From positions 1,558,789 through 1,622,788 of the forward strand of contig NZ_GL883077.1 in assembly GCF_000204015.1 (NCBI RefSeq): 64,000 bases of DNA. Reading direction: 5' to 3'. The position numbers were made by a program, and so were the translations under genes. Source of the DNA: Asticcacaulis biprosthecium C19. GTDB taxonomy: Bacteria > Pseudomonadota > Alphaproteobacteria > Caulobacterales > Caulobacteraceae. A model generated the notes under the pieces. It did not search any database, was not told where the DNA came from, and worked only from the letters and a program-made list of their open reading frames with translations. Below are positions 1 to 46,245 of the stretch, one piece after another. Each line of letters starts with the position of its first letter. Positions within the stretch are counted from its first letter, which is position 1.

Positions 1-5
1 AACTC

Positions 6-1028
6 TTATCCTGAGCGCTTTCCATCCGCAGGCGCGTTGTCAAGCCGCCGTTGCCATCCATGGTATGGGTGGCCTCCTCGATCAGCCATTTTTTGCGCCA
101 TCAGCTCGGCCTTGTCTCCGGTCAAGGTCAGCTTACGGCCGGGATACCAGTCCGGACGGCCCAGGGCCAGGGTGGTGTCGTAAGTCCATTTTCCGCGCGC
201 GGTCCTGGCGTGTTCGGCCTCGGCCGCCTGGGTGGCGTCGGCTTCGTTGTGATAAATCCTGCGCAGGCGTTTCGGCGTGCCAGATCCGCTGTGTCCAATG
301 GTCACCGAATGCTGCTGGGCGCCGGCCTTGTCATGCCAGACAGCTTTGACGCCCGCCGACTCGCTCTGTTCGGCACAGGACCAGGTCCGTTGCGGGGCTT
401 CGCGGCGATCGAGGGTGACGCCGTCGAGCGGGACGCCGCCGGCCGTGGTGTCGGATCCGGACGGTGCGAAGACCAGGACGCCCGCCTTGACCGTGGCGGT
501 GGCATCGAATCGGCGCCCCAGCTCACGCAGCATGGCGCTATCGCTCTTGGCCGCATGGCCCAGGGCTGGGATGACCTTACCCGTGAGGGATGGTGCCACG
601 CTGGCCTTCAGGCCATTTGCCGAGGCAATGGCGGTGATGACGTGGCCGACAGTTTGGCCGACATAGCTGCGTTGCCGGCGGACCCGGAAGGCGTCGGTAA
701 AGTCGGCAGACCTGGCGCGCAGGGTGATGGTATCGAAGGGTCCGCCGCCGCCGACTTCGTCGACCTTGAAGGCGCCCTTGTCGATTAGTCCTATTGGCAG
801 TCCGCTGGAGAGGTTGTCACCCTGAAGCCAGCCCATAGAAACGCGCAGGACGGCGCCTTTACGTGGGATGGCGACCTTGCCGTCTTTGTCGTCCAGGACG
901 ATGTCCAGCTGGTCGGCGGCCTCGCTGCGTTTTTCGGTGATGGTCAGGGCGATCAGGCGCGGGTTCATGACCGGCGTGAGATTGACGCCGTCCAGGAAGA
1001 CCGACCAGGCCGCCTTTGCTACGGTCAT
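6..1028 (-). CDS. D: Phage tail hub / late control protein D (P2 gpD-like)
   Basis: Encodes about 340 residues resembling P2 gpD, the baseplate hub that joins the tail tube to the spike (structural relative of T4 gp27 and the VgrG N-terminus). I chose the ATG at 1028 (MTVAKAAW) because it lies just after the stop of the upstream endolysin gene; an in-frame ATG at 1103 would overlap that gene by 65 bp. The stop TAA is at 6-8, so the gene is complete. It is the last tail gene visible, matching D's place at the end of the P2 late tail operon. The P2 activator gene ogr normally follows D and would lie outside the window. Confidence 0.85.
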   Translation of the reverse strand: MTVAKAAWSVFLDGVNLTPVMNPRLIALTITEKRSEAADQLDIVLDDKDGKVAIPRKGAVLRVSMGWLQGDNLSSGLPIGLIDKGAFKVDEVGGGGPFDTITLRARSADFTDAFRVRRQRSYVGQTVGHVITAIASANGLKASVAPSLTGKVIPALGHAAKSDSAMLRELGRRFDATATVKAGVLVFAPSGSDTTAGGVPLDGVTLDRREAPQRTWSCAEQSESAGVKAVWHDKAGAQQHSVTIGHSGSGTPKRLRRIYHNEADATQAAEAEHARTARGKWTYDTTLALGRPDWYPGRKLTLTGDKAELMAQKMADRGGHPYHGWQRRLDNAPADGKRSG

Positions 1029-33350: not shown

Positions 33351-33369
33351 ACGGTAGCCTGGCTCTCCT

Positions 33370-33535
33370 CGACCGAGATGGGGTTTGCTGAAATCGCCCG
33401 CCCCGCTTGCGGGGAGGGGGACCGCCGAAGGTGGTGGGAGGGGGCTACCGTCAGTGGAATAGCCCCTTCCGTCTTTTTTTGCTTTCGCAAAAAATCCACC
33501 TCCCCCGTAAACAGGGGAGGCGAAGGTGGTCCATG
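33370..33535. repeat. GC-rich palindromic intergenic element
   Basis: Two imperfectly complementary halves, CTTGCGGGGAGGGGGACC... with CGAAGGTGGTGGGAGGGGG, and CCACCTCCCCCG... with GGGGAGGCGAAGGTGGTCC, flank a T-rich centre. It can fold into a long hairpin and resembles the REP/MITE-like elements scattered between genes in GC-rich alphaproteobacteria. It may also end the ABC operon transcript. Confidence 0.5.
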
Positions 33536-33660
33536 CTAAACCCTACCTGCGTGACCGAAAATCTTCCGGTTTTCCGGCATCATCGAATTGCAGATACGCA
33601 TCTTCTGATCTTGCAATATCGGCATTGACGTGTCTGACACCATGTGGCAGTTATTTATCT

Positions 33661-33677
33661 TATAAATCGGATAAATA
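33661..33677. promoter_or_regulatory. 17-bp operator motif, site 1 (upstream of galM)
   Basis: TATAAATCGGATAAATA fits TATNNATC-N-GATNNATA. An overlapping larger inverted repeat TATTTATC (33652-33659) and GATAAATA (33670-33677) is also present. It lies 20 bp before the galM start, so a bound repressor would cover the promoter. Confidence 0.6.
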
Positions 33678-33696
33678 TAGTCCACAGGGATGAACC

Positions 33697-34842
33697 ATGC
33701 ACAAACTAGCCCCCGTTTGGGTCGCGCCCGTTCTCATGCTGCTGGCTGTGTCGGCTCAGGCCGCCGACGTCAAACGCGCGCCCTTCGGCCAACTTGCTGA
33801 CGGAGGACCAAATGGCGGAAAAGTCGAGGCCATTACCCTGACCAACGCCAGAGGCACCTCGGCCACCGTCATCACCTATGGCGCCGGCCTACAGGCCCTG
33901 ATCACGCCCGACCGCGACGGAAAACCCGCCGACATCACCCTGGGCTATGCGGATCTCGCCACCTACATATCGACGCCGCAATATTTTGGCGCCACCGTCG
34001 GCCGCTTCGCTAACCGCATCGCCAAGGGCCAGTTCACCCTCGACGGCAAGTCCTACCAGACCCCGGTCAATAATGGTGTCAATTCGCTGCACGGCGGCAC
34101 CAAGGGCTTCGACAAGGTCAACTGGACCGTCGTCTCGGTCAAGTCCGGCGACACCGCCTCGGTCGAGTTGGAATATGTCAGCCCCGACGGCGATATGGGC
34201 TATCCCGGCCAGATGACGGTCCACGCCGTCTATGCCCTGAGCGAGGCCAATGAACTGACCATCCGCTACACGGCGACGACGACCAAGACGACCATCGTCA
34301 ACATCACCAACCACGCCTACTGGAACCTGGCCGGTGAAGGCAGCCACCGCTCGATCAATGAGCACAAGCTGACCCTGTTGGCTGATGCCTATCTGCCGAC
34401 CGACGTCGGCGCGATTCCGACCGGAGAGGTCCGTCCGGTTGCCGGAACGGTCTTTGACTTCCGCACCCCCACCGCGATCGGCGCCCGGGTGCGGGATGCT
34501 TCGGACCCTCAGATCGTCTATGGCCGGGGCTACGACCACAACTGGGTCGCCAGTCGCACCCGGACCGCCCAGCCACGCCTGATGGCCGTGGTCGAGGACG
34601 ACGTCTCCGGCCGCAAGCTGGAACTGCGGTCGGACCAGCCGGGTATCCAGTTCTATTCCGGCAACTTCCTCGACGGCACCTCGTCGGGCAAGTCGGGCCA
34701 TATCTACCGTGAGGGCGACGCCTTCGTGCTGGAGCCGCAGGTCTTCCCGGACACGCCCAATCAGCCGGACTTTGGCTCGGCCGTCCTGAACCCGGGCGAA
34801 ACCTATTCCAATACCCTCATCTATCGCTTCAGCGCGCAATAG
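33697..34842 (+). CDS. galM: Aldose 1-epimerase, exported
   Basis: Encodes 381 residues with a Sec signal (ALVWV... cleavage after AQAADV-type end near residue 23). Catalytic landmarks: NHAYWNLAGEGSH (His acid, near residue 205) and VLEPQVFPDTPNQPDF (Glu base, near 345). It interconverts alpha and beta anomers of aldoses, here in the periplasm, likely to speed use of sugars released by the nearby hydrolases. It is followed 48 bp later by the exported GH-A enzyme and preceded by operator site 1. Confidence 0.9.
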   Translation: MHKLAPVWVAPVLMLLAVSAQAADVKRAPFGQLADGGPNGGKVEAITLTNARGTSATVITYGAGLQALITPDRDGKPADITLGYADLATYISTPQYFGATVGRFANRIAKGQFTLDGKSYQTPVNNGVNSLHGGTKGFDKVNWTVVSVKSGDTASVELEYVSPDGDMGYPGQMTVHAVYALSEANELTIRYTATTTKTTIVNITNHAYWNLAGEGSHRSINEHKLTLLADAYLPTDVGAIPTGEVRPVAGTVFDFRTPTAIGARVRDASDPQIVYGRGYDHNWVASRTRTAQPRLMAVVEDDVSGRKLELRSDQPGIQFYSGNFLDGTSSGKSGHIYREGDAFVLEPQVFPDTPNQPDFGSAVLNPGETYSNTLIYRFSAQ

Positions 34843-34890
34843 CCGACCTGACGCGACCAACATAACTCCAAGGATTCAGAAGGATAAGAC

Positions 34891-36051
34891 ATGAAACCGA
34901 TGAAGTTCTTCCTGATCGGAAGCGGCATGGCGATGGTCTTCGCCACCCAGGCCCTGACCATGGCCCATGCCGAAACCCAGCGCTGGACCGAAGCCCAGGC
35001 CCATGCCTGGTACGGCAAACAAAGGTGGCTGGTGGGCAGCAACTACCTGAACACCTCGTCCATCAACCAGTTCGAGATGTGGCAGGCCGACACCTTTAAT
35101 CCTGTCGAAATCGACCGCGAATTCGGCTGGGCCCAGTCGCTGGGTATGAATACCATGCGCGTCTACCTGCATGACCAGCTCTGGGAGCAGGATCCGGAAG
35201 GATTCAAGACCCGCATCGATACTTTCCTGACGATCGCGCAGAAGCACAAGATCAAGCCGATGTTCGTGCTGTTCGACTCGTGCTGGGATCCCGATCCGGT
35301 GACCGGCAAACAGCACCGCCCGACGCCCGGCACGCACAATTCCGGCTGGGTCCAAAGCCCTGGCAATGCCGGTCTGATGAATGAAGCCGGATGGGGCAGG
35401 TACGAAGCCTACGTCAAGGGCATCGTCGGGGCGTTTGGTAAGGATGACCGTATCCTGGCCTGGGACGTGTGGAACGAACCCGACAACCGTGGTGGCGGCA
35501 ATTACAAGCAACTGGACGAACAGGTGAAGATCGCCCAGGTCGCCAAGCTGCTGCCGCAGGTCTTTGCCTGGGCGCGCAGCCAGGATCCGAACCAGCCCCT
35601 GACCGCCGGCCTGTGGCACAATCCCGACTGGGATAAGAAGGAGCGCCTGAACGCCGTCGAACGCGTTCAGGTCGAACAGTCCGACATCATCACCTTCCAC
35701 AATTACGAGTGGCCGGAGAACCTGGAAGCGCGCATCAAGTCGTTGCAGGTCTATGGCCGTCCGATGATCCTGACCGAATACATGGCGCGTGGTAACGGCT
35801 CGACCTTCGATTCGGCCCTGCCGCTGGCCCGCAAGTACAATGTCGGCGTCATCAACTGGGGCTTTGTGCTGGGCAAGAGCCAGACCAACATGCCGTGGGA
35901 TTCGTGGGAGCGTCCCTATACCCTGAACCAACCGACCCTGTGGTTCCACGACATCTTCCATCCGGACGGCACACCCTACCGCAAGGCGGAAACCGACCAG
36001 ATCAAGGCCATGACGGCCGAGGCCGAAAAGGCCTTCAACCAGAAGAAATAA
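34891..36051 (+). CDS. Exported clan GH-A (GH5-like) glycoside hydrolase
   Basis: Encodes 386 residues with a signal peptide ending MAHAETQ. TIM-barrel landmarks: VGSNYLNTSSINQFEMW, MNTMRVYLHDQLW, MFVLFDSCWDPD, then WDVWNEPDN near residue 195 (acid/base Glu) and MILTEYMARGNGSTFD near 292 (nucleophile Glu). It resembles the COG3934/GH5-like group often labelled xylanase or mannosidase; the true substrate cannot be read from sequence. A close paralogue without a signal peptide is at 43148-44254. It follows galM in one unit. Confidence 0.85.
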   Translation: MKPMKFFLIGSGMAMVFATQALTMAHAETQRWTEAQAHAWYGKQRWLVGSNYLNTSSINQFEMWQADTFNPVEIDREFGWAQSLGMNTMRVYLHDQLWEQDPEGFKTRIDTFLTIAQKHKIKPMFVLFDSCWDPDPVTGKQHRPTPGTHNSGWVQSPGNAGLMNEAGWGRYEAYVKGIVGAFGKDDRILAWDVWNEPDNRGGGNYKQLDEQVKIAQVAKLLPQVFAWARSQDPNQPLTAGLWHNPDWDKKERLNAVERVQVEQSDIITFHNYEWPENLEARIKSLQVYGRPMILTEYMARGNGSTFDSALPLARKYNVGVINWGFVLGKSQTNMPWDSWERPYTLNQPTLWFHDIFHPDGTPYRKAETDQIKAMTAEAEKAFNQKK

Positions 36052-36058
36052 GCCGAAG

Positions 36059-36086
36059 CCGGGGAGGGCGACCTCCCCGGTTTTTT
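36059..36086. terminator. Terminator between the GH-A gene and halogenase 1
   Basis: CCGGGGAGG and CCTCCCCGG form a perfect 9-bp stem with loop GCGA, followed by T6. It ends the galM-GH unit. The halogenase stop codon overlaps the T-run from the other strand. Confidence 0.88.
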
Positions 36087-37590
36087 ATCGACCCGCCGCT
36101 TTCATACCAGCGCGTGCAATGAATTCGCCATGGTCCGGTAGCGTTTCGGCCGCTCCCTCGATCACCGAACGGAATTTCGTCAGCCAGGCCGCGCCATCGG
36201 CCTCGCGATAAGCCAGCAAAGGATCGTTGCGTTCGGGAAAATTCATCTGACCGATATGAACCGCCAGCCAGGACGGGTCGCCGAACAGATCCAGTTCCCG
36301 GTGAGCTATCTTGCCGTAGCGCCGAAACAGCGCGATGGTTTCGCGCAACGAGTCCGGAATGTCCATGGCGGCGCAGTACCGCCACAGGGGCGAATCGTCG
36401 CGCTGGGTGAGCTTGTAGTGCAGGACGATGAAGTCGCGGATGCGCTCGAACTCGGTGCGCGTCAGGCGGTTGAACTCATCGACCAGGACGGGATCGAAGT
36501 CACGGTCAGGAAAGAGGATCAGCAACTTGGCGATACCCGACTGGATAAGATAGAGGCTGGTTGATTCCAGCGGTTCCATGAACCCGCTCGACAGGCCGAT
36601 GGCGACGACGTTCTTGTTCCAGAAGTGGTTGCGCCGGCCCGTGGTAAAGCGCAGGGGCCGCGGATCGGCCAGGGGCGCACCGTCGAGATTGGCGATCAAC
36701 ACAGCGGCCGCGTCCTCGTCGCTGATATATTGGCTGGCATAGACATGGCCGTTGCCGGTGCGATGCTGCAGCGGTATGCGCCATTGCCAGCCGGCCTGGT
36801 GCGCGGTGGATCGGGTATAGGGTGTGAAGTCGGCAGAAGAGGTGCAGGGTACGGCCAGGGCCCGGTCGCACGGCAGCCAGTGCGTCCAGTCCTGATAGCC
36901 GGTTTTTAGCGCGCCTTCGATCAGCAGGCCGCGAAAGCCCGAGCAATCGATGAACAACTCGCCGGCAACGCTACGGCCGTCGTCTAGCGTCAGCGTCTCG
37001 ACAAAACCGGTTTCGGCATTCTGCCCGACCGCGACAATCCGGCCTTCGAGACGCTTTACGCCCTTGGCCTGCGCATACGTGCGAAGCATGGCGGCGTAGA
37101 GGCCGGCGTCGAAATGGTAGGCATAGTCATAGGTCGACAGGACGTGGCGCGGATCGGCCGACGGCGGAGCGAAGCGGTTCCGCTTCGCGGCGGACCAGGC
37201 CATGCAGTAGTCGTCAAGCCCGCCGGCCTGTCCGGCCTCGAACGCGGCCTGCCAGTAATGAAAGACGCCGGCCATGTCGAAGTCGCGGCCGAAACTGCCG
37301 AACGGGTGGAAGTACGCATGATTCAACCTGCCCCAGTTGACGAACTGGATGCCCAGTTTGAACGAGCCCTGGGTGGCGCGGACGAATTCAGCCTCGTCGA
37401 TGCCTAAAGTCTTGTTGAAGCGGACGATGGGCGGGATGGTGGCTTCGCCGACCCCAACGGTACCGATCTCTTCCGACTCGATCAGGGTAATGGTGCAGTT
37501 CCGCTGCAGGGCATTGCTAAGCGCGGCAGCCGCCATCCAGCCGGCCGAGCCGCCGCCGGCAATGACGATGTTGCGGATATGGCGATCCAT
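36085..37590 (-). CDS. Flavin-dependent tryptophan halogenase family protein 1
   Basis: Encodes 501 residues from ATG 37590 ([20 protein letters not shown]) with GGGAG upstream. FAD motif [14 protein letters not shown], the family's catalytic Lys in [14 protein letters not shown] near residue 80, and [15 protein letters not shown] (WxWxIP motif that blocks monooxygenation) near 275. C-terminal [14 protein letters not shown] is also typical. It chlorinates or brominates an indole-like substrate using FADH2 from a separate reductase. Such genes sit beside TonB receptors in Caulobacterales (BrvH from Brevundimonas is one example). Native substrate unknown. Confidence 0.9.
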
Positions 37591-37699
37591 GCGTTTCTCC
37601 CGGCGACATCCGGCCTGATTGCGGTATGCTTTGACGTCAACGCGAGCCCGCGCCAAGTCCTGAATACCGCCAAAATCCGAAAAGCCAATTGAATTATAT

Positions 37700-37716
37700 T
37701 ATAATACTGATAAATC
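37700..37716. promoter_or_regulatory. 17-bp operator motif, site 2 (between halogenase 1 and GH43-1)
   Basis: TATAATACTGATAAATC, an imperfect match to TATNNATC-N-GATNNATA, within a longer AT-rich stretch (37692-37725). It lies in the divergent region and could control both genes. Confidence 0.5.
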
Positions 37717-37770
37717 TTATAATGAGCCATGACGCGCTTCGTTGCATCAAAAAAATTAAGGTGGAGTCAC

Positions 37771-38769
37771 ATGAAAAGGACACAGGTAAACAAGGCTATG
37801 GCGGCTTTGGCGCTCGTCATCACTGGCTGTTTCGGCGCGGTTCATGCGGCTGAGCCGGTCCAGCGCCAGCCCGTGCTCGATGTCAATTTCCCCGACCCCT
37901 TCGTCCTGGTGACCAAGGATGGACTGGCCGCCTATGCGACCAACGGCGGTGTCGGTAACCGGCACCTCAATGTGCAGTTTTCCCGTTCCGCCGACGGCCT
38001 GACCTGGAGCGCGCCGGTCGACGCCATGCCGCGGACACCGTCCTGGGCGCGGCGCTACGGCCCGGATATCTGGGCGCCGGAGGTCATGAAGATCGGCGAC
38101 AAGTACGTCATGTATTTCAGCGCCCGCCATGCCCGAAAGCTACGTCCCGACGGCCTGACCTTATGCGTCGGCGCCGCTGTGGCCGACGCACCGGAAGGTC
38201 CGTTCCGGCCGCAGAGCGAGCCTTTGACCTGCGGTGGCGACATCGGCGCCATCGACGCCAACCCCTTCCGCGACGGCGATGACCTGTGGCTATACGTCAA
38301 GACCGACGGCAATTGCTGTGGTGTGCCAACCGGCATTGTCGCCCAGCGCCTCAGTGCCGACGGCCTGTCCCTGACGGGCGAGCCGCACCTAGTCTCGGGT
38401 GTCATCAACGACATGCCGTGGGAGGGCGGCGTGGTCGAGGCGACCCAGATGATAAAGCGCGGACCAATCTACTGGATGTTCTACGCCGGCAACGACTACA
38501 GCAACGAAAAGTACGCGACCGGCTACGCCATGTGCAAGACGCCGATCGGGCCATGCCTCGACGCCAAGGAAAACCCTATTCTGCAAAGCGAGCCGGGCAA
38601 TCCGCCCCTGACCGGACCTGGTCACCAGAGCCTTTTCGAAATCGATGGCGATATGTGGATCGCCTATCACGGTTGGTTGGGCAGCGACGCGGACCGAAAC
38701 CGCCGCCGCGTCATGTATATCGACCTGGTCGACTGGAGCACCGGCCTTCCGGTCATTGTGGCCAGATAG
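37771..38769 (+). CDS. Exported glycoside hydrolase family 43 protein (GH43-1)
   Basis: Encodes 332 residues from ATG 37771 (MKRTQVNKAMAALALVITGC) with AAGGTGGAG upstream and a signal peptide ending VHAAEP. Five-bladed beta-propeller landmarks: NFPDPFVLV (catalytic base Asp), DIGAIDANPF (pKa-modulating Asp) and MPWEGGVVEATQM (acid Glu). GH43 enzymes are xylosidases, arabinofuranosidases or galactosidases. A convergent sialidase-like gene begins 3 bp after its end. Confidence 0.82.
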   Translation: MKRTQVNKAMAALALVITGCFGAVHAAEPVQRQPVLDVNFPDPFVLVTKDGLAAYATNGGVGNRHLNVQFSRSADGLTWSAPVDAMPRTPSWARRYGPDIWAPEVMKIGDKYVMYFSARHARKLRPDGLTLCVGAAVADAPEGPFRPQSEPLTCGGDIGAIDANPFRDGDDLWLYVKTDGNCCGVPTGIVAQRLSADGLSLTGEPHLVSGVINDMPWEGGVVEATQMIKRGPIYWMFYAGNDYSNEKYATGYAMCKTPIGPCLDAKENPILQSEPGNPPLTGPGHQSLFEIDGDMWIAYHGWLGSDADRNRRRVMYIDLVDWSTGLPVIVAR

Positions 38770-38772
38770 CTT

Positions 38773-39912
38773 TCACTCAGACAGGCGCACGGTTCCGAAG
38801 CGGGCCCGGCACTTGCCATCCGAATAGTCCGTGACGATCGACAATATCGACGCGCCATCCTCCGACGCCAACACCGGCGACGAATAGTTCTGACAGACAT
38901 TGCCGTCCGCCGGGATATCCCGCACATCGACCGGGGCAGGGGTCATCCGCCACGGTCCGGCGCCAGTGCCGCTGTCATCGACAAACAGCGTCACCGCCGC
39001 ATCCTTCTGGTGAACGCCGCCGCGATAGACGCGCTGGCCCGTCACGATCAGTCTGCCCGACCCGCGCGCCAGCGCATGGGTCGGGGTGGCTCGTAGGGTA
39101 AAGCCGTCGGGTGTTACCAACTGTTGCCCGGCATCGGCCGGATCGCCCCAGTCGACGCCATCGGCCGAAAAGCGGGTATAGACATCGCAATTGTGGCCGG
39201 GGCCGCAAATCTCATAGGTCATAAAAAACCGCCCGTCGCCCAGCCGCGAAACGACCGGCATGCCAGGCCTGTCCCCGGATGGCGCCAACTTCACGATCGC
39301 CTTTGGTGCCGACCAGTGGATGCCATCTGACGACAGGGATTGCTGCAGGATCTGCGAATGACCCGGGACGGTTTCATCCGAGAAGAGGCACCCCAACTGT
39401 CCGTTCGCGGTGAGGAGGAATTCAACCTCCCACAGCCCGCCGCCCTTGCGTTGAACCGGCGCCGTATAACAGATCGACAGATTGGACCAGGTTACGCCGC
39501 TATCGTCGCTGCGATGAATCTTCAGTCTCATGGGCTGATTGTCGATGCCTTGTCCGACCGAGCTGGCATACAACAAGGTTCCGGCCTTCAAGGCGCCGAC
39601 CGCCACCGGCAGGGCATAAAGACCGCCGCAACACAGGCCGCCGGCAAAATCTGGATCGCGGATCTCACTCACCTTGGTAAAGGTGACGCCATCGTCGTCG
39701 CTGCGGAAGATATCGGCATGAGCGCCGCCTTCAAAAGCGGTGACACTGGCCACCAATGGTTTGGCCGGGGTTGTCGTCTGGCGCACGACTCGCGGATACA
39801 TGGCCGTTCCGTCGCCAAGTGCCATGCCCTCCTGGGCACAGGCCGGGACAAAGGCCAGAAGACAGCAAAACGACAGCAGGCCTATCAGGGGCCGTTTGGA
39901 CTGAGTCTGCAT
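38773..39912 (-). CDS. Exported sialidase-like BNR/Asp-box protein
   Basis: Encodes 379 residues with a signal peptide (MQTQSKRPLIGLLSFCCLLA, cleavage near ACAQE). Asp-box repeats are visible: RSDDDGVTFTK, RSDDSGVTWSN, LSSDGIHWSA and RFSADGVDWGD, giving the six-bladed propeller of sialidases and related exo-glycosidases (GH33/GH93-like). The catalytic Tyr/Glu pair and Arg triad cannot be confirmed by eye. Members of this fold in plant-polymer loci often act on arabinan or rhamnogalacturonan side chains. Confidence 0.72.
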   Translation of the reverse strand: MQTQSKRPLIGLLSFCCLLAFVPACAQEGMALGDGTAMYPRVVRQTTTPAKPLVASVTAFEGGAHADIFRSDDDGVTFTKVSEIRDPDFAGGLCCGGLYALPVAVGALKAGTLLYASSVGQGIDNQPMRLKIHRSDDSGVTWSNLSICYTAPVQRKGGGLWEVEFLLTANGQLGCLFSDETVPGHSQILQQSLSSDGIHWSAPKAIVKLAPSGDRPGMPVVSRLGDGRFFMTYEICGPGHNCDVYTRFSADGVDWGDPADAGQQLVTPDGFTLRATPTHALARGSGRLIVTGQRVYRGGVHQKDAAVTLFVDDSGTGAGPWRMTPAPVDVRDIPADGNVCQNYSSPVLASEDGASILSIVTDYSDGKCRARFGTVRLSE

Positions 39913-40213
39913 CCGTCATCCTCCATTGAGCGCATATCGTCGCTTCAAAAGTACGATAAATAAGAAGAAGGTGATAGTCTTTGTCGTCGACGCTTTCAAC
40001 GAATTTGGCTCCCTGTACGCAAAGATGTCCGTTAATAAATTGAAATTGTTCAATAAATTAAATTGTATCATAATTGCACCATTTGGGATTTTCTAACGCT
40101 CTCGCGAAAAAAGCGATTGATCTCGTGATCATATAAATCATATATCATGCTCAAGAACGTCGCCCTGCCACGAGGCGCCGAAACCGACAAACAAGAACAG
40201 AGGGAAACCGGAT
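39913..40213. other. Divergent intergenic region with operator site 3
   Basis: AT-rich, gene-free region between the sialidase-like gene and TonB receptor 1. It holds the operator motif at 40132-40148 and a half-site-like GATAAATAAG near 39955. No other element is supported. Confidence 0.5.
40132..40148. promoter_or_regulatory. 17-bp operator motif, site 3 (upstream of TonB receptor 1)
   Basis: TATAAATCATATATCAT: the left half matches the consensus exactly, the right half is degenerate. It lies 66 bp before the receptor ATG. Confidence 0.5.
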
Positions 40214-42952
40214 ATGAAACTTAAGGCCATTATACTGGCAACCGCCTCGACCATTTCGATGATGGCGTGGGGTGCGTCTGCCAATGCCCAAACTGCGCAG
40301 GATCAGGCCGCGCCGGAGACGTCGGCAGATGCCGCCGCTGCGCCGGGCGATGCCATCGTCGTTACCGGTCTGCGCCGCAGTATGGCGTCGTCGCGGGCTC
40401 TCAAGAGGAATTCCGACCAGATCGTTGACGCCGTCGTCGCGGCGGAAATCGGCAAGCTGCCCGATACGGCCGTGTCGGACTCGCTGGCCCGCGTGACCGG
40501 CGTCACCGTCGGCCGCAATGGCGGTGAAGCCGACAGCGTTCTGGTGCGCGGTCTGCCGAACATCGCCACCAGCTATAACGGTCGCGATATCTTTACTGCC
40601 GAGGGCCGTTTCGTCGCCTCCCAGGACTTCGCCGCAGGCAACGTCGCCGCGCTCGAAGTCTTTAAGTCGACCACCGCCGATCAGGTCGAAGGCGGGATTG
40701 CCGGTCTGATCAATGTCCGCGGCCGCCGTCCCTTTGATTTCAAGGGCCGCGAAATCTCGGGTATGGCCAACTACCTCTACGCCAACCAGTCCAAGGACTA
40801 CGCACCTAACGGCAACCTGCTGATCAGCAACCGCTGGTCGACCGGGGCCGGCGAGTTCGGCGCGCTGCTCAACGTTTCCTATAATCGCTTCCACTTCCTC
40901 GACTCGAAGCGCTTCATCGGGTCCTTCGTCAGCGCCACCCTGCCGGGCGGCGCCGGAACCCCGGACGCGTCGAAATATGCCGGCAAGCGTTTCGGCGACC
41001 TGATCGGCATCAACTATGCCGAACACGACCGCGAGCGTCCGTCGGCCAATGCCGCCCTGCAATGGCGCCCGAACGAGGAACTGGAGCTTTATGCCGACTT
41101 CCTTTACCAAGGTTATCGCTCCAAGGTGTATGACCGCAATATGGAGGTCCCCCTGTGGGGCGGCAGCCAGTATAACGATATCGAGCTGAGCCTCGACAAC
41201 AGCCGCGTCGAAAGCATGACGGTCGACAATCCTGTCCGCGTTCAGGGCTGGCAGGCGGCCACCACGGGCCGCACTGACACCTATCAGGTCGCAGCCGGCG
41301 GAAAGTGGAAATCCGGCCCGTGGACCGTGTCAGCCGACCTGGCTTCGACCCAGTCCAAATTCTTTCTTTCCGTTTATAGCTGGGACTTTGCCTTTACCAG
41401 CAGCCCTTCGGTCCATGTCGATTACGACGCCGGCTCGGACGGTGGCGTGAACTTCACCTTCGAGAATTTCGACACGACCAATCCGGCCAATGGCAAGTTC
41501 CGTGGCTTCTTCGACCGGCAATTGTCGGCGCGTGGCCGTGACATTCAGTTCCGCACCGATGCGGAATACCGCACCAACCTGTCCTATCTGCCCCGCGTCC
41601 GTTTCGGCGTCCGTACGGTCGACCGCAAGGCGGCCTTCGACAACGGCGAACGTTACAACAATGTGGAGGGCGCCAATATCCTGCTGGCAAGTACCGGCCT
41701 GGATATCCGCACGACCACGCCGGGTTTTGTCGGCGAAACCTACCCGTCGGTGCGTAGCTGGGCGGGCCCGACCTCGGCTTCGATCCGCGCCAAGGCCAAC
41801 TCCCTGCGGGCCCTCGTCGGTTTCCCCGACGGACCGCCGCCTTACAATCCCAACCAGCATTTCACGGCCAATGAAAAATCGACCGCGGCCTATGGCCAGA
41901 TCGACTACGCCTTCGACTGGGGCATACCGGTGGACGGCATCGTCGGCGTCCGCGTGGTCGACACGGATGAAAGCGTCACCAGCAGCCAGCGCACCCTGAC
42001 GAGTGGCTATACCGATACCCTGCCCACGGCCAGCATGCGTCTGCATGTGACGAACGACACGCAGATCCGTATCGCTGCTAACAAAACGCGCACGCGGCCG
42101 AACTTCGGCGACCTCAACCCGAACTACGTCGTCAATTCCGGCACGCGTATCGAATACGACTCGGTTGCCAACGAATATTTCCGCTGGGGCGGCGGGTCGG
42201 GCAATATCGACTTGAAGCCCTATACCTCCGACAATTTCGACGTGACGTTCGAACACTATTTCGGCGCGACGGGCCTGTTTGCGGCCAATGTCTTCCATCG
42301 CAAGGTCGACGGCTTCATCAACTACCAGGTCATCAAGATCACGGACGACCAGTTTACCAACAATCCGGCGCCCGATCCGAACAACAACGGCTATGCCACC
42401 GATACGCAGAACGTCCGCATCAGTGTGCCCTACAACGCCAATACGGTAAACTTCAAAGGCGCGGAAGTTCAGTTCACCACCTTCTTCGACTATGACTTCC
42501 TGCCGACCTGGGCGACGCAATTCGGCATCCAGGCCAACCTGACCTACATGGAAAGCAACTCGCCGTCCTCCTACAAGCAGGACAAGAACCAGCCGGGCGT
42601 TTCGCGCCTGACCGGCAACCTGACCGGCATGTATGAAAACGGACCGTGGTCGGCACGCCTGGCTTACAACGCCCGCAGCAAGTGGCTCAATGTCTGTGAC
42701 GCGGTTCAGGACTGGGGCGGCAACCCTGGCTGCGAATACACCAAGGGGACGGCCCGGGTCGACGTCTCGGCCAGTTACCGGATTTCGGACAATCTCTCGA
42801 TTGCTACCGATCTGAACAACCTGTTCCCCAAACCCCTGCGCGTCTATCGCGTCTACATGAACGACATCGCCGGCGGCGGCAACGGTATCTACAACACGCA
42901 AATCCGCAACGAAGAAACCGTCTACTCGGTCGGTATCCGCTTCCGCTACTAG
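40214..42952 (+). CDS. TonB-dependent receptor 1
   Basis: Encodes 912 residues with a signal peptide ending ANAQTAQ. TonB box DAIVVTG near residue 50, plug domain (RNSDQIVDAVVAAEIGKLPDTAVSDSLARVTGV, VLVRGLPNIATSYNGRDIFT), then a 22-strand barrel ending in a C-terminal aromatic (SVGIRFRY). It belongs to the carbohydrate-type TonB receptors of Caulobacterales and Sphingomonadales and probably imports oligosaccharides for the neighbouring GH enzymes. It is preceded by operator site 3 and followed by a terminator. Confidence 0.93.
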   Translation: MKLKAIILATASTISMMAWGASANAQTAQDQAAPETSADAAAAPGDAIVVTGLRRSMASSRALKRNSDQIVDAVVAAEIGKLPDTAVSDSLARVTGVTVGRNGGEADSVLVRGLPNIATSYNGRDIFTAEGRFVASQDFAAGNVAALEVFKSTTADQVEGGIAGLINVRGRRPFDFKGREISGMANYLYANQSKDYAPNGNLLISNRWSTGAGEFGALLNVSYNRFHFLDSKRFIGSFVSATLPGGAGTPDASKYAGKRFGDLIGINYAEHDRERPSANAALQWRPNEELELYADFLYQGYRSKVYDRNMEVPLWGGSQYNDIELSLDNSRVESMTVDNPVRVQGWQAATTGRTDTYQVAAGGKWKSGPWTVSADLASTQSKFFLSVYSWDFAFTSSPSVHVDYDAGSDGGVNFTFENFDTTNPANGKFRGFFDRQLSARGRDIQFRTDAEYRTNLSYLPRVRFGVRTVDRKAAFDNGERYNNVEGANILLASTGLDIRTTTPGFVGETYPSVRSWAGPTSASIRAKANSLRALVGFPDGPPPYNPNQHFTANEKSTAAYGQIDYAFDWGIPVDGIVGVRVVDTDESVTSSQRTLTSGYTDTLPTASMRLHVTNDTQIRIAANKTRTRPNFGDLNPNYVVNSGTRIEYDSVANEYFRWGGGSGNIDLKPYTSDNFDVTFEHYFGATGLFAANVFHRKVDGFINYQVIKITDDQFTNNPAPDPNNNGYATDTQNVRISVPYNANTVNFKGAEVQFTTFFDYDFLPTWATQFGIQANLTYMESNSPSSYKQDKNQPGVSRLTGNLTGMYENGPWSARLAYNARSKWLNVCDAVQDWGGNPGCEYTKGTARVDVSASYRISDNLSIATDLNNLFPKPLRVYRVYMNDIAGGGNGIYNTQIRNEETVYSVGIRFRY

Positions 42953-42996
42953 TTTTTCCTTCCTCTGCGACCCTCCTCCCTGGAGGTTCTAACCTT

Positions 42997-43030
42997 GCCT
43001 CCCTTCTCTTCCCGAGAGGGGAGGCTTTTT
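42997..43030 (+). terminator. Terminator after TonB receptor 1
   Basis: GCCTCCCTTCTC and GAGAGGGGAGGC form a 12-bp stem (one G-T wobble) with a 5-base loop, followed by T5 on the + strand, 45 bp after the receptor stop. Confidence 0.85.
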
Positions 43031-43093
43031 CTATCTTCGCAATCCTTGTCCCACGGCGTTGACCATTGGCCGCAGGTGTGGAAGATTTCTTCA

Positions 43094-43110
43094 TATAAAT
43101 CTTATTTAAT
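43094..43110. promoter_or_regulatory. 17-bp operator motif, site 4 (upstream of cytoplasmic GH-A enzyme)
   Basis: TATAAATCTTATTTAAT: left half exact, right half degenerate. It lies 38 bp before the ATG at 43148. Confidence 0.5.
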
Positions 43111-43147
43111 CGCAGTCTTTTGGCGCGATCAGTCCGGGTTAATCGTC

Positions 43148-44254
43148 ATGGTGTCATCCAATCAGGCGCGATCCTCTCTCGATGCGGAGGAAACGCGAAT
43201 GCGCTGGACTGCCGAGGCCGCGCAGAGCTGGTATGACCGGCAACCCTGGCTGGTCGGTAGCAATTTCATACCCTCCACCGCAATCAACCAGTTTGAAATG
43301 TGGCAGGCCGCCACCTTCGATCCTGTAACGATCGATCGGGAACTGGGGTGGGCCGCCGGGATCGGTATGAACACCGCCCGGGTCTTCCTTCATGACCGGA
43401 TCTGGGCCGATGACCCCGATGGACTGATTCGGCGTATCGACAACTTCCTTGGGATTGCCGACAGCCACCGCATCCGACCGATCTTCGTGCTGTTCGATTC
43501 GTGCTGGGATCCCAATCCGCAGCCGGGACTGCAACGCGCGCCCCGCCCCGGAACGCACAACTCCGGCTGGGCCCAAAGCCCGGGAACCGAAGGCCTGCGC
43601 GATGCCGCGCACTATCCGCGCCTGAAGGCGTATGCCAAGGCGGTTGTCAGCGCCTTTGCCAAGGACGCGCGCGTTCTGGCCTGGGACGTGTGGAACGAGC
43701 CGGACAACCAGGGCGGCGCGACCTATGACCAGCTCGACGAAGCGGAAAAAATTCGATTGGTGGCCGGCCTGTTGCCGCAAGTCTTCGACTGGGTACGCAG
43801 CGCGGGGCCGGTGCAGCCCTTGACCAGTGGCCTTTGGCACAACGAAGACTGGTCCCCACAGGGCCGGCTGAATGCCGTCGAAAGCATCCAACTCGAACAG
43901 TCCGACATCATCAGCTTTCACAATTACGACTGGCCGGAAATCCTGGAAGCCCGAATCGCGCAACTTAGGCCCTATGGCCGGCCTTTGCTGCTGACGGAAT
44001 ACATGGCGCGCGGTAACGGCTCGACGTTTGATTCGGCCCTGGTGACGGGCCGGCGCGAAAATGTCGCCATGATCAACTGGGGCTTCGTTGTCGGCAAGAC
44101 GCAGACGAACATGCCGTGGGATTCATGGCAAAGGCCCTATATCGACACCCAGCCGACCCTGTGGTTTCACGATATCTTGCATGCTGACGGCCGGCCCTAC
44201 CGCCAGGCGGAGGTGGAACTGATCCGCCGAATGACTCGCGAAGCCAGAAGCTAA
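43148..44254 (+). CDS. Cytoplasmic clan GH-A (GH5-like) glycoside hydrolase, paralogue of 34891-36051
   Basis: Encodes 368 residues from ATG 43148 (MVSSNQARSSLDAEETRMRW). No signal peptide. The same landmarks as its exported paralogue are kept: VGSNFIPSTAINQFEMW, FVLFDSCWDPN, WDVWNEPDNQGG (acid/base Glu) and LLTEYMARGNGSTFD (nucleophile Glu). The two are alike over nearly their full length. A cytosolic and a periplasmic copy suggest two stages of cutting the same linkage before and after import. An upstream in-frame ATG at 42995 lies inside the terminator and is rejected. Confidence 0.83.
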   Translation: MVSSNQARSSLDAEETRMRWTAEAAQSWYDRQPWLVGSNFIPSTAINQFEMWQAATFDPVTIDRELGWAAGIGMNTARVFLHDRIWADDPDGLIRRIDNFLGIADSHRIRPIFVLFDSCWDPNPQPGLQRAPRPGTHNSGWAQSPGTEGLRDAAHYPRLKAYAKAVVSAFAKDARVLAWDVWNEPDNQGGATYDQLDEAEKIRLVAGLLPQVFDWVRSAGPVQPLTSGLWHNEDWSPQGRLNAVESIQLEQSDIISFHNYDWPEILEARIAQLRPYGRPLLLTEYMARGNGSTFDSALVTGRRENVAMINWGFVVGKTQTNMPWDSWQRPYIDTQPTLWFHDILHADGRPYRQAEVELIRRMTREARS

Positions 44255-45000
44255 AGCGCGCGCTTGTCGGCGTCTTCCTGGGCGTGAATAACCAGCAGCA
44301 CGTCGTTGACGATCAGGTGCATGGCCGCATAAGCGCGTTTGGGGTCACGATCGAAAATGGCCTTCATGATATTCTCATGGGCTTCGATATTCGGCGTCGC
44401 TTGGTTGACGCGGGTGGTAAACTGAATCGACGTCATCAGCGCCGTGCGGATCAGCTCCTGGAATTGGTAGTAAAACGGATTGCCGGAGGCGAACAGGATC
44501 GAGATATGAAAGTCGATATCGGCCACGGTCGGGTCGCCGTCGCCGCCATCGGCGCGTACCATGCGCTCAAAAGCCAGCTTCATGCGCTGCAGGTCTTCAT
44601 AGGCTGCGTTGTGTGCCGCCAGTTCGGCCGCCTTGGGCTCGACCGAAACGCGCAGTTCAGTAAATTGGCGCAGCAGGCGCAGCGAGAATTTGCGCTCCAG
44701 AAGCCAGCGCAATACATCCTTGTCGAGCAGGTTCCATTGCAAGGTCGGCTGGATGACCGTGCCCTGGCGCGGCCGCGCTATCAGCAGACCCTTGGCGGTC
44801 AGCATCTTGACGGCTTCGCGGGTGACCGAACGGCTGACGCCGTATTGCTCAGCGAGCACGGCTTCGGTAGGGAAAACCTTGTTGTCGTAATGTCCAACAA
44901 CGATCGCCTTGCCGAGATGGTCCAGCAGTCCGATGGTCAGGTTACGGCCCAAGGAAAAGGTCGAGCCAAACTCTTTTTCAACGTGCATCGATGGCTGCAA
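44251..45000 (-). CDS. GntR-family transcriptional regulator (FadR/FCD subfamily)
   Basis: Encodes 249 residues. Winged HTH at about 25-95 (FPTEAVLAEQYGVSRSVTREAVKMLTAKGLLIARPRQGTVIQP). All-helical FCD domain at about 105-240 with metal/ligand residues in ADIDFHISI, IEAHENIM and YAAMHLIV. Such regulators answer to sugar acids or similar intermediates. It is the only regulator inside the sugar locus and has operator site 5 about 80 bp upstream, so it is the best candidate for the protein that binds the 17-bp motif. Its 3' end overlaps the convergent GH gene by 4 bp. Confidence 0.9.
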   Translation of the reverse strand: MQPSMHVEKEFGSTFSLGRNLTIGLLDHLGKAIVVGHYDNKVFPTEAVLAEQYGVSRSVTREAVKMLTAKGLLIARPRQGTVIQPTLQWNLLDKDVLRWLLERKFSLRLLRQFTELRVSVEPKAAELAAHNAAYEDLQRMKLAFERMVRADGGDGDPTVADIDFHISILFASGNPFYYQFQELIRTALMTSIQFTTRVNQATPNIEAHENIMKAIFDRDPKRAYAAMHLIVNDVLLVIHAQEDADKRAL

Positions 45001-45081
45001 TACCGAAAGGGTGAAATATCTCTGGTCGCATTGATATGGTCAAACGCCTCAAACGGCAAGTCGTTTGGCGCTTAATTGTAT

Positions 45082-45098
45082 TATAGATCGGATGGATA
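45082..45098. promoter_or_regulatory. 17-bp operator motif, site 5 (upstream of the GntR gene)
   Basis: TATAGATCGGATGGATA fits TATNNATC-N-GATNNATA exactly in all defined positions. It suggests autoregulation. Confidence 0.62.
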
Positions 45099-45217
45099 AG
45101 CCGTCCGACAGGCCTCTGACCTCAGAGCCGTTATCCGTAGCAACCATCTCGCCTTCAGGCTGCGGCATAAATTGCCCGGATTTTGGTTGCGTATCCCACG
45201 CCTCTCCATTATTATAT

Positions 45218-45234
45218 TATAAATAAGATAAATG
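45218..45234. promoter_or_regulatory. 17-bp operator motif, site 6 (upstream of GH43-2)
   Basis: TATAAATAAGATAAATG, a close match to the consensus, preceded by ATTATTATAT. It ends 15 bp before the GH43-2 start codon. Confidence 0.55.
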
Positions 45235-45249
45235 TGGGAATGGAGAGAT

Positions 45250-46245
45250 ATGCTCAGGTTTTTGCCGCTTTTCGTCGCCTTTTTTTTGGTGTCGCCACAG
45301 GCCGGCGCCGCCGAAACCTTCACAAACCCGTTGCTGGATTCGGGGCCGGATCCATGGATTACGCGTGACGGCGACACCTATTACTACATGCACACCATGG
45401 GCAATCGTATTGTCATCTGGAAGACCCTCGACATTGCCAGCCTGTCCAAGGCCAAGCGAAAAACGGTTTGGCTTCCACCGCGGCAGGGGCCGGCCGCGAT
45501 TTCGCTGTGGGCGCCCGAACTGCATCGTATCGATGGCAAATGGTATCTCTATTACACGGCCGCTGAGGCGGGTTTCGACGACGATGCGCATCGTGGTGTC
45601 TTCGTGCTGGAAAATGCCAGTGCAGATCCCACCACTGGGGACTGGGTCGACCGGGGCCGGGTCAATACCGCCCTGGCCGGCATCGACGGCACGACCTTCG
45701 AATATGGTGGCCAGCGCTATTTCGTCTACTCGCCCTATGTCGGACCGGACAGTGTCCTGAGCATTTCGCGGATGGCTGATCCCTGGACCCTGGCCGGAGG
45801 CGAGACCATCCTTGCCCGTCCGGACCTGGCTTGGGAACGCCAGGGCGGTCGTCAGATTCTGGAAGGGCCCGAATTCCTGCAAGGCCCTGACGGCCAGTTG
45901 TTCCTGACCTACTCGGCCAGTGCCTGCTGGTCGGATGACTATGCTCTGGGTTTGCTGAGCGCCCCCGCCGGCAGCGACCCGCTTAACGCCGCGTCATGGA
46001 CCAAGTCGGCGACGCCGGTATTGGCCAAATCGGTATCCAACGGCATCTACGCCACGGGACACAACGGTTTCTTCACGTCGCCGGACGGCAAGACGACCTG
46101 GATCATTTATCACGCCAACCCAGGCCCGAATATGGGGTGTACGCCGCAGCGTTCGCCGCGCATCCAGCCGGTCACCTGGGGTGACGATGGCCGGCCACAG
46201 TTTGCAGAGCCGCAGAAGGACGGTGTGCCCATCGAAGCCCCATAA
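45250..46245 (+). CDS. Exported glycoside hydrolase family 43 protein (GH43-2)
   Basis: Encodes 331 residues from ATG 45250 (MLRFLPLFVAFFLVSPQAGA), chosen for GGAGAG five bases upstream; ATG 45232 overlaps the operator. Signal peptide ends AGAAET. Propeller landmarks: NPLLDSGPDPWI (base Asp), TALAGIDGTTFEY (second Asp) and ILEGPEFLQG (acid Glu). Of the subfamily often annotated alpha-L-arabinofuranosidase or beta-xylosidase. Closer to classical GH43 than GH43-1. Confidence 0.87.
   Translation: MLRFLPLFVAFFLVSPQAGAAETFTNPLLDSGPDPWITRDGDTYYYMHTMGNRIVIWKTLDIASLSKAKRKTVWLPPRQGPAAISLWAPELHRIDGKWYLYYTAAEAGFDDDAHRGVFVLENASADPTTGDWVDRGRVNTALAGIDGTTFEYGGQRYFVYSPYVGPDSVLSISRMADPWTLAGGETILARPDLAWERQGGRQILEGPEFLQGPDGQLFLTYSASACWSDDYALGLLSAPAGSDPLNAASWTKSATPVLAKSVSNGIYATGHNGFFTSPDGKTTWIIYHANPGPNMGCTPQRSPRIQPVTWGDDGRPQFAEPQKDGVPIEAP

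Follow-up and report, generated by a model that had tools for sequence, protein, structure and literature searches.

The 64,000-nucleotide stretch of Asticcacaulis biprosthecium C19 DNA analyzed here (contig NZ_GL883077.1, positions 1,558,789 to 1,622,788; hereafter the window) holds a TonB/GH43 polysaccharide cluster, and the question it raises is whether these genes are governed by the regulator encoded among them and through what kind of operator. In a host genome of 5.4 Mb, the cluster comprises galM, two clan GH-A-like proteins (GHA1 and GHA2), a tryptophan-halogenase-like protein, two glycoside hydrolase (GH) family 43 proteins, a BNR-repeat protein, a TonB-dependent receptor (TBDR1), and a GntR/FCD regulator. 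Our answer, to which we assign a probability of about three in four, is that the genes between galM and GH43-2, both included, form a local regulon under the DgoR-like GntR/FCD repressor encoded among them, which would act through an A/T-shifted FadR-type operator.

Eight conserved sites lie ahead of the cluster genes

The recurring element is TTRT-NNN-ATAA, in which two inverted KATAAAT half-sites meet at a 1-nt centre (TTRTM-N-KATAA) within aligned islands. There are eight such sites, one or two ahead of each gene or operon from galM through GH43-2 (gene strands in brackets):

33653..33676, + strand: site 1, before galM-GHA1, ATTTATCTTATAAATCGGATAAAT, the inverted pair plus a perfect third half-site.
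37692..37715, + strand: site 2, between halogenase 1 (-) and GH43-1 (+), AATTATATTATAATACTGATAAAT, with a perfect third half-site.
39947..39961, + strand: site 3, before the BNR-repeat gene (-), AAAAGTACGATAAAT, left half poor, kept in three clusters, weak when held out.
40061..40075, + strand: site 4, distal site of TonB receptor 1, AATTGTATCATAATT, without a third half-site, kept in four clusters.
40124..40147, + strand: site 5, proximal site of TonB receptor 1, CGTGATCATATAAATCATATATCA, middle half perfect and left half poor, kept in four clusters.
43086..43109, + strand: site 6, before GHA2, TTTCTTCATATAAATCTTATTTAA, middle half perfect and left half poor, kept in three clusters.
45074..45097, + strand: site 7, before gntR (-), AATTGTATTATAGATCGGATGGAT, kept in three clusters.
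45210..45233, + strand: site 8, before GH43-2, TATTATATTATAAATAAGATAAAT, with a perfect third half-site.

The cluster is kept in two related genomes, G008 and G009 (GntR 94% identity), and rearranged in a third, G016 (80%), and the GntR gene lies inside the cluster in all four genomes compared. Alignment of the gene gaps with two or three related clusters revealed conserved AT-rich islands at all eight sites (the GHA2 and GntR gaps were aligned over three clusters, the others over three or four). The original prediction, made from the letters of the window, had listed six coordinates; AT-rich sequence is present at every one as described, and the phylogenetic footprinting it proposed shows conserved islands at these six places and at two that were overlooked, 39947 and 40061. 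The copy that it assigned to the GntR gene is site 7, and its broader idea of a local sugar regulon with a repeated operator gains support: the GntR gene is present in all four clusters, and some of its relatives have sites of this type nearby. Past 46.5 kb, where a second TonB receptor gene and a second halogenase gene lie, no site was found: none of the 32 top-scoring window matches of either matrix is beyond 45.3 kb.

The element has the register of FadR-type operators

A set of 30 sites was picked by eye from the gap alignments and anchored on ATAA; the distal receptor site of G016 was pooled with the BNR group, and the site before the G016 gntR gene was left outside the training set. In this by-eye, ATAA-anchored set, position 4 is T and positions 8-10 are A, T, and A in 30/30 sites, position 5 is A or C in 30/30, position 7 is G or T in 26/30, and position 3 varies (14 G, 13 A, and 3 T). 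A T stands instead of C in all 30. TTRTM-N-KATAA has the palindromic form of FadR-subfamily operators, in which a GT-AC spacing of 3 nt (or 2) is typical, with 3 nt here and with A/T replacing some G/C; the TKGT/ACMA box letters, which are typical of the subfamily without defining it, are here TTRT/ATAA.

BioR differs in its role, which is biotin regulation. The operator of this GntR-family protein, as cited in PMC4494728, is TTATMKATAA, with TTAT/ATAA boxes like those of the cluster sites but a 2-nt rather than a 3-nt spacing. The same paper names BioR and NanR as exceptions to the TKGT/ACMA letters and gives the FadR-subfamily operator form as GTM-N0-1-KAC, which positions 5 (A/C) and 7 (G/T) of our sites resemble. 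We conclude that the operator is most likely of a type already known in kind, with FadR-type spacing and shifted here toward A/T, rather than a new type.

A new operator type with a 17-bp TATNNATC-N-GATNNATA palindrome was what the original prediction had put forward, and we now consider this very improbable. The palindrome has two exact copies in the genome, both in the cluster, and its centre is the second best (mean match 0.52 over the eight window sites). The best centre, however, is position 6 of our frame, 9 nt upstream of the claimed one (0.61); an exact fit is found in only 2/8 window sites, the second half is missing at 40061, 39947, and most of the dgoD and paralogue sites described below, and the palindromes near relatives of the regulator (ATTTATCTGATAAAT) fall on the FadR-type centre. 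The site at 40061 (TTGTATCATAA) has no second half in the 17-mer frame, yet it is kept in four clusters with one change.

In the window, exact TATNNATCNGATNNATA is present at 33661 and 45082 only, with 2 mismatches at 45218 and, by manual count, 3 at 37700, 3 at 43094, and 4 at 40132. At up to 2 mismatches the window has 5 matches, compared with a shuffle mean of 0.52 and a largest value of 3 (0/100 shuffles reached 5); one of the five, at 36240, is inside the halogenase gene and another, at 33652, overlaps site 1. Genome-wide, the exact 17-mer is found only at the two cluster places; the loose form (up to 2 mismatches) is common elsewhere, with 77 places versus 25 for the reversed pattern. 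We rejected the 17-mer as the motif on its register (site alignment, palindrome centre, palindromes of relatives, and half-site scores): the sites first noticed are real and conserved, but their frame was shifted and two further sites were missed. The 17-mer arose from a third half-site, which lies 9 nt on and is perfect in 3/8 sites; its frame covers the right half-site plus this extra half-site, an arrangement already known from FadR-subfamily sites.

Some sites carry a third half-site

When scored with the middle half-site matrix of the other operons, this third box is perfect at the galM, halogenase/GH43-1, and GH43-2 sites (11.8-12.1 bits), weak at the GntR, TBDR1 proximal, and GHA2 sites, and absent at the BNR and TBDR1 distal sites, against a background in which 0.23% of window positions reach 6 bits. 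Outside the window sites, 3/38 site rows reach 6 bits, two of these rows being one site. Section 17 of PMC4494728 describes FadR-subfamily operators with an extra box 7-12 nt off the palindrome centre; the box is weaker there, and ours is likewise displaced, but perfect in three sites.

Held-out tests and the genome-wide distribution

When one operon at a time was left out, 0-6 of 126579 background positions equalled the held-out window site with a 15-nt core matrix (-1..13), and 0-13 of 126561 scored as high with a 24-nt matrix. The extra box alone was weak for 6/8 held-out sites. A matrix made without G016, which still holds the orthologous sites of the other three clusters, was applied to a 30-kb G016 stretch, where 12 of the 14 best core rows are in gene gaps of the cluster, including ATTTATCTGCTAAAT ahead of the G016 gntR gene, a site in no training set. 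The remaining two rows both represent a single place outside the cluster, ahead of a TonB receptor-like gene.

A sequence model trained on the cluster sites (R1) was used to search the C19 genome, with 150 of 218 candidates scored and those with E<=10 listed. Six places were listed (E 0.108-2.38): five are among the eight sites of the cluster, and the sixth precedes a dgoD-type gene. In the related genomes 6/8 (G008), 5/6 (G009), and 3/4 (G016) of the listed places are within the cluster; as R1 was trained on cluster sites, these counts inform only on how the sites rank relative to other places in each genome. The dgoD-type gene, located on a different contig from the cluster, matches the galactonate dehydratase model NF010624 with 574.9 bits and is followed on the same strand by a DGOK and a KDPG-aldolase-type gene. 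At up to 2 mismatches, TTRTMNKATAAWTNNNATAAAT matches the dgoD site as well as three sites of the cluster (1 and 0 for the reversed control).

The strict core WWTTRTMNKATAAWT occurs at nine places in C19, three of them in the cluster and one at dgoD, and its reversed control has 0 matches here, as in each of the six related genomes searched. The other five places are before a GH27-type alpha-galactosidase gene, between a sodium:solute symporter gene and a GH3-type gene, after a GH9-like gene, by a ricin-B-lectin protein, and by an amt-type gene (by eye). Elsewhere, the share of strict cores in the cluster is 3/6 (G008), 3/10 (G009), and 1/5 (G016), and the share at the GntR locus is 2/2 (G200), 1/1 (G175), and 1/4 (G190). 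In G190 (L170, ~1500), a strict operator-like site adjoins a tryptophan-halogenase-like gene (by eye), as in the cluster. The by-eye names, which cover amt, glnA, several TonB receptors, and some dgoD, dgoK, and aldolase genes of L142-L147, are assignments from the first residues.

The cluster regulator resembles DgoR

The cluster GntR protein has the FadR-subfamily domain pair, a GntR winged helix-turn-helix (PF00392, 1.9e-11) and FCD (PF07729, 1.1e-20), and its nearest solved chain is 7c7e, E. coli DgoR (E 1.8e-25). DgoR is the GntR/FadR repressor of the D-galactonate genes (PMC12288454 and PMC7674646); its IR1 contains TTGTAGTACAA, with the same 3-nt spacing as the cluster sites, and it has two closely spaced inverted repeats overlapping its promoter, a further likeness to the cluster. 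The right half differs, being ATAA in the cluster sites and ACAA in the DgoR operator. The FCD metal residues D146, H150, and H195 of DgoR, as well as R102, are kept in the cluster protein. The gene setting also differs: the cluster regulator lies in a TonB/GH43 cluster that has no dgo gene, whereas DgoR lies by the dgo genes.

At position 28 of PMC4494728 (our own mapping), which is mostly Arg, both DgoR and the cluster GntR have Ala. Loss of this Arg as the cause of the A/T shift is a weak candidate, since the Ala of E. coli DgoR goes together with a GT/AC site in IR1. When 15 regulators were compared, most relatives showed a TN[RK]-to-AS stretch before the histidine (TN[RK]..G..AS...H-like), and the four cluster regulators have TTR..N and TPN instead (TTRVNQ.ATPNIEAH). 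Because this pocket stretch differs, the effector of the cluster regulators may have shifted with the operator unchanged.

Like sites accompany GntR paralogues and dgoD homologues

A search of C19 with the cluster GntR gave 12 matches at E<=0.001, counting the protein itself. The paralogue tests used fetched loci of the genus (26 GntR and 22 dgoD), whose rows include orthologues of one another and in which one site (G001) is counted in both sets. A core score of at least 18 within 400 bp upstream was found for 16/26 GntR paralogues (46-52% identity; mean 0.25 and maximum 2 in 100 shuffles), compared with 1/26 on the downstream side of the same genes, and for 16/22 dgoD homologues (mean 0.39 and maximum 2). 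Among the six dgoD genes that fall short, five have a GntR gene directly upstream by position and the sixth is that of G008 (12.8). The flanks of two paralogues (L111 and L112) hold GH31, GH42-type, and GH27 genes.

A TTGAC box follows the dgoD site (L083-L092) after 4-5 nt in 9/9 cases with that strand printed, so the site is probably not a -10 element there. This bears on the idea that the islands are promoter -10 or other AT-rich elements and not operators, to which we give hardly any credence: although they hold TATAAT-like strings close ahead of start codons, the conserved part exceeds the length of a -10 box, and the strict pattern has only nine places in 5.4 Mb and none when reversed. 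The spacing at dgoD would fit an operator abutting a -35 box, and with this placement the mode of action there could differ.

Outside the genus, 26 loci were fetched (65 genomes, own genus included, have a match at E<=1e-57). The closest of these relatives, L116-L122 of the same family (56-60% identity), group with the cluster GntR at 99% in the Shimodaira-Hasegawa-like approximate likelihood ratio test (SH-aLRT) in a quick, midpoint-rooted tree with long branches flagged. Site labels on the tree were set by hand, requiring a core score of roughly 15 or higher in the 450 bp on either side; L025 and L037-L039 were labelled by the downstream side, L041 (13.2) was counted as none, and L116 was labelled site-bearing because the longer stretch L147 has sites. 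The stretches around six of the seven members (L142-L147) all have sites, with core scores of 16.8-22.1 and including ATTTATCTGATAAAT; four places in L142 and three in L147 score at least 18, and the weakest best site (16.8) is in L146. The surrounding genes are of dgoD, DGOK, aldolase, lactonase, galM, GH36, and TonB receptor types, not all in each and partly named by eye, and the seventh member, L119, has no site in its 1.5-kb flanks. At galactose genes, relatives of the cluster GntR appear to use sites of this kind.

Which regulator reads the sites

The main reader of these operators could instead be another GntR/FCD paralogue, or several could share them. The number of GntR matches in C19, the same core upstream of 16 of the 26 paralogues, and the presence of the dgoD site in genomes that lack close relatives of the cluster GntR all speak for such a reader, which we nevertheless judge unlikely, given that gntR is part of the cluster in each of the four genomes and has a site before it and that a third half-site of at least 6 bits is so rare in other site rows.

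Several results do weigh against a local regulon of the cluster's own regulator. Paralogues could read the same sites. The site set was picked by eye and ATAA-anchored, the BNR, TBDR1 proximal, and GHA2 sites have poor left halves, and the held-out 11-mer core is weak at BNR (116 background positions) and GHA2 (23). None of the R1 E-values (0.1-2.4) is significant alone, and 3/8 cluster sites are unlisted with 150/218 candidates scored. Core scores upstream are below 18 in 10/26 GntR paralogues and 6/22 dgoD homologues; outside the genus only 5/26 loci have a score of at least 15 within 450 bp, a sixth having its site farther off, and L123-L141 (19 loci, all of genus g22) have none in that range. 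Strict sites lie by amt-type ammonium transporter genes (by eye) in C19 and G008 (L154, L157, ~1500). Finally, the DgoR pocket residues Q173, R179, W181, D184, and T191 are not kept, the cluster GntR having L, F, T, N, and N (letters counted by hand; DgoR S221 and R224 are outside the aligned stretch). Accordingly, the inducer need not be galactonate, and we class the protein as DgoR-like, not DgoR.

At the G008 amt-side site there is also a glnA-like gene (by eye), and no sugar link was seen at either of the two amt-side sites. All of L123-L141, which are without the operator, have PRHGT in the wing, and most site-bearing loci have PRQGT; this is only a lead, as PRHGT is found in one group and may reflect a single event. 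In eight of these loci (L124, L131, L133-L137, and L139), the best upstream string is part of an ACAATCATGTCAA-like element, which is possibly a changed operator.

Cluster genes and probable substrate

The cluster genes are as follows:

33697..34842, + strand: galM, aldose 1-epimerase (domain search).
34891..36051, + strand: GHA1, clan GH-A-like protein without a Pfam or NCBIfam match (low-confidence fold match).
36085..37656, - strand: tryptophan-halogenase-like protein 1 (halogenase 1), likely start near 37590.
37729..38769, + strand: GH43-1.
38773..39912, - strand: BNR-repeat protein.
40214..42952, + strand: TonB-dependent receptor 1 (TBDR1), TIGR01782.
43151..44254, + strand: GHA2, 64% identity to GHA1, without a Pfam or NCBIfam match.
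44251..45000, - strand: GntR-family regulator with GntR (PF00392) and FCD (PF07729), the proposed reader of the sites.
45232..46245, + strand: GH43-2, closest solved chains of arabinofuranosidase/xylosidase-type GH43.

Since site 8 overlaps the ATG at 45232, the true GH43-2 start is probably the ATG at 45250 (MLRFLPLF). GHA1 and GHA2 both carry WNEPDN and LTEYMARG, and a third copy is present in G008 and G009; a relative in L142 also has an operator-like site nearby. No PDB sequence match was found for GHA1, and its low-confidence model resembles clan GH-A (GH5) enzymes. A substrate assignment from this fold was dropped because of the low mean predicted local distance difference test (pLDDT) value of the six-sequence model (53.8) and the template modelling (TM) scores of 0.25-0.30 for the top Foldseek matches, GH5 mannanases. 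A plant polysaccharide carrying galactose and/or arabinose is the probable substrate of the cluster. The gap before galM is GC-rich and inverted-repeat-like at 33360-33540, and G009 has a similar-looking stretch; it may be a dispersed repeat.

Proposed mode of regulation

We hypothesize that a GntR dimer binds the inverted KATAAAT half-site pair with its 1-nt centre and FadR spacing, and that, at the sites that have one, the third half-site at 9 nt may bring in an additional subunit. Without inducer, the regulator would sit beside or over the promoters and repress the receptor, the hydrolases, the halogenase, and its own gene; we infer repression because DgoR represses and the sites are close ahead of the starts. 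The inducer is probably a sugar acid, which would be held by the FCD metal site and release the regulator from DNA.

Implications

Among the titles listed in our literature searches, none concerned a DgoR of the Caulobacterales or a sugar regulon of Asticcacaulis, which is not proof of absence. A tentative and rather doubtful extension is that paralogous FCD regulators share one A/T-shifted operator, their effector pockets having diverged. If so, the same sites could be read by several regulators, each responding to a different sugar acid. This would link receptor clusters, galactosidases, and the galactonate pathway in one network, in which the third half-sites would give the cluster's own regulator an edge. 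Paralogues that share an operator but sense different acids would also be a good system for studying repressor insulation versus cross-talk. For the Caulobacteraceae, our results propose a concrete regulon for a TonB/GH43 polysaccharide cluster, with an operator consensus that is usable for finding galactose-linked loci in the family.

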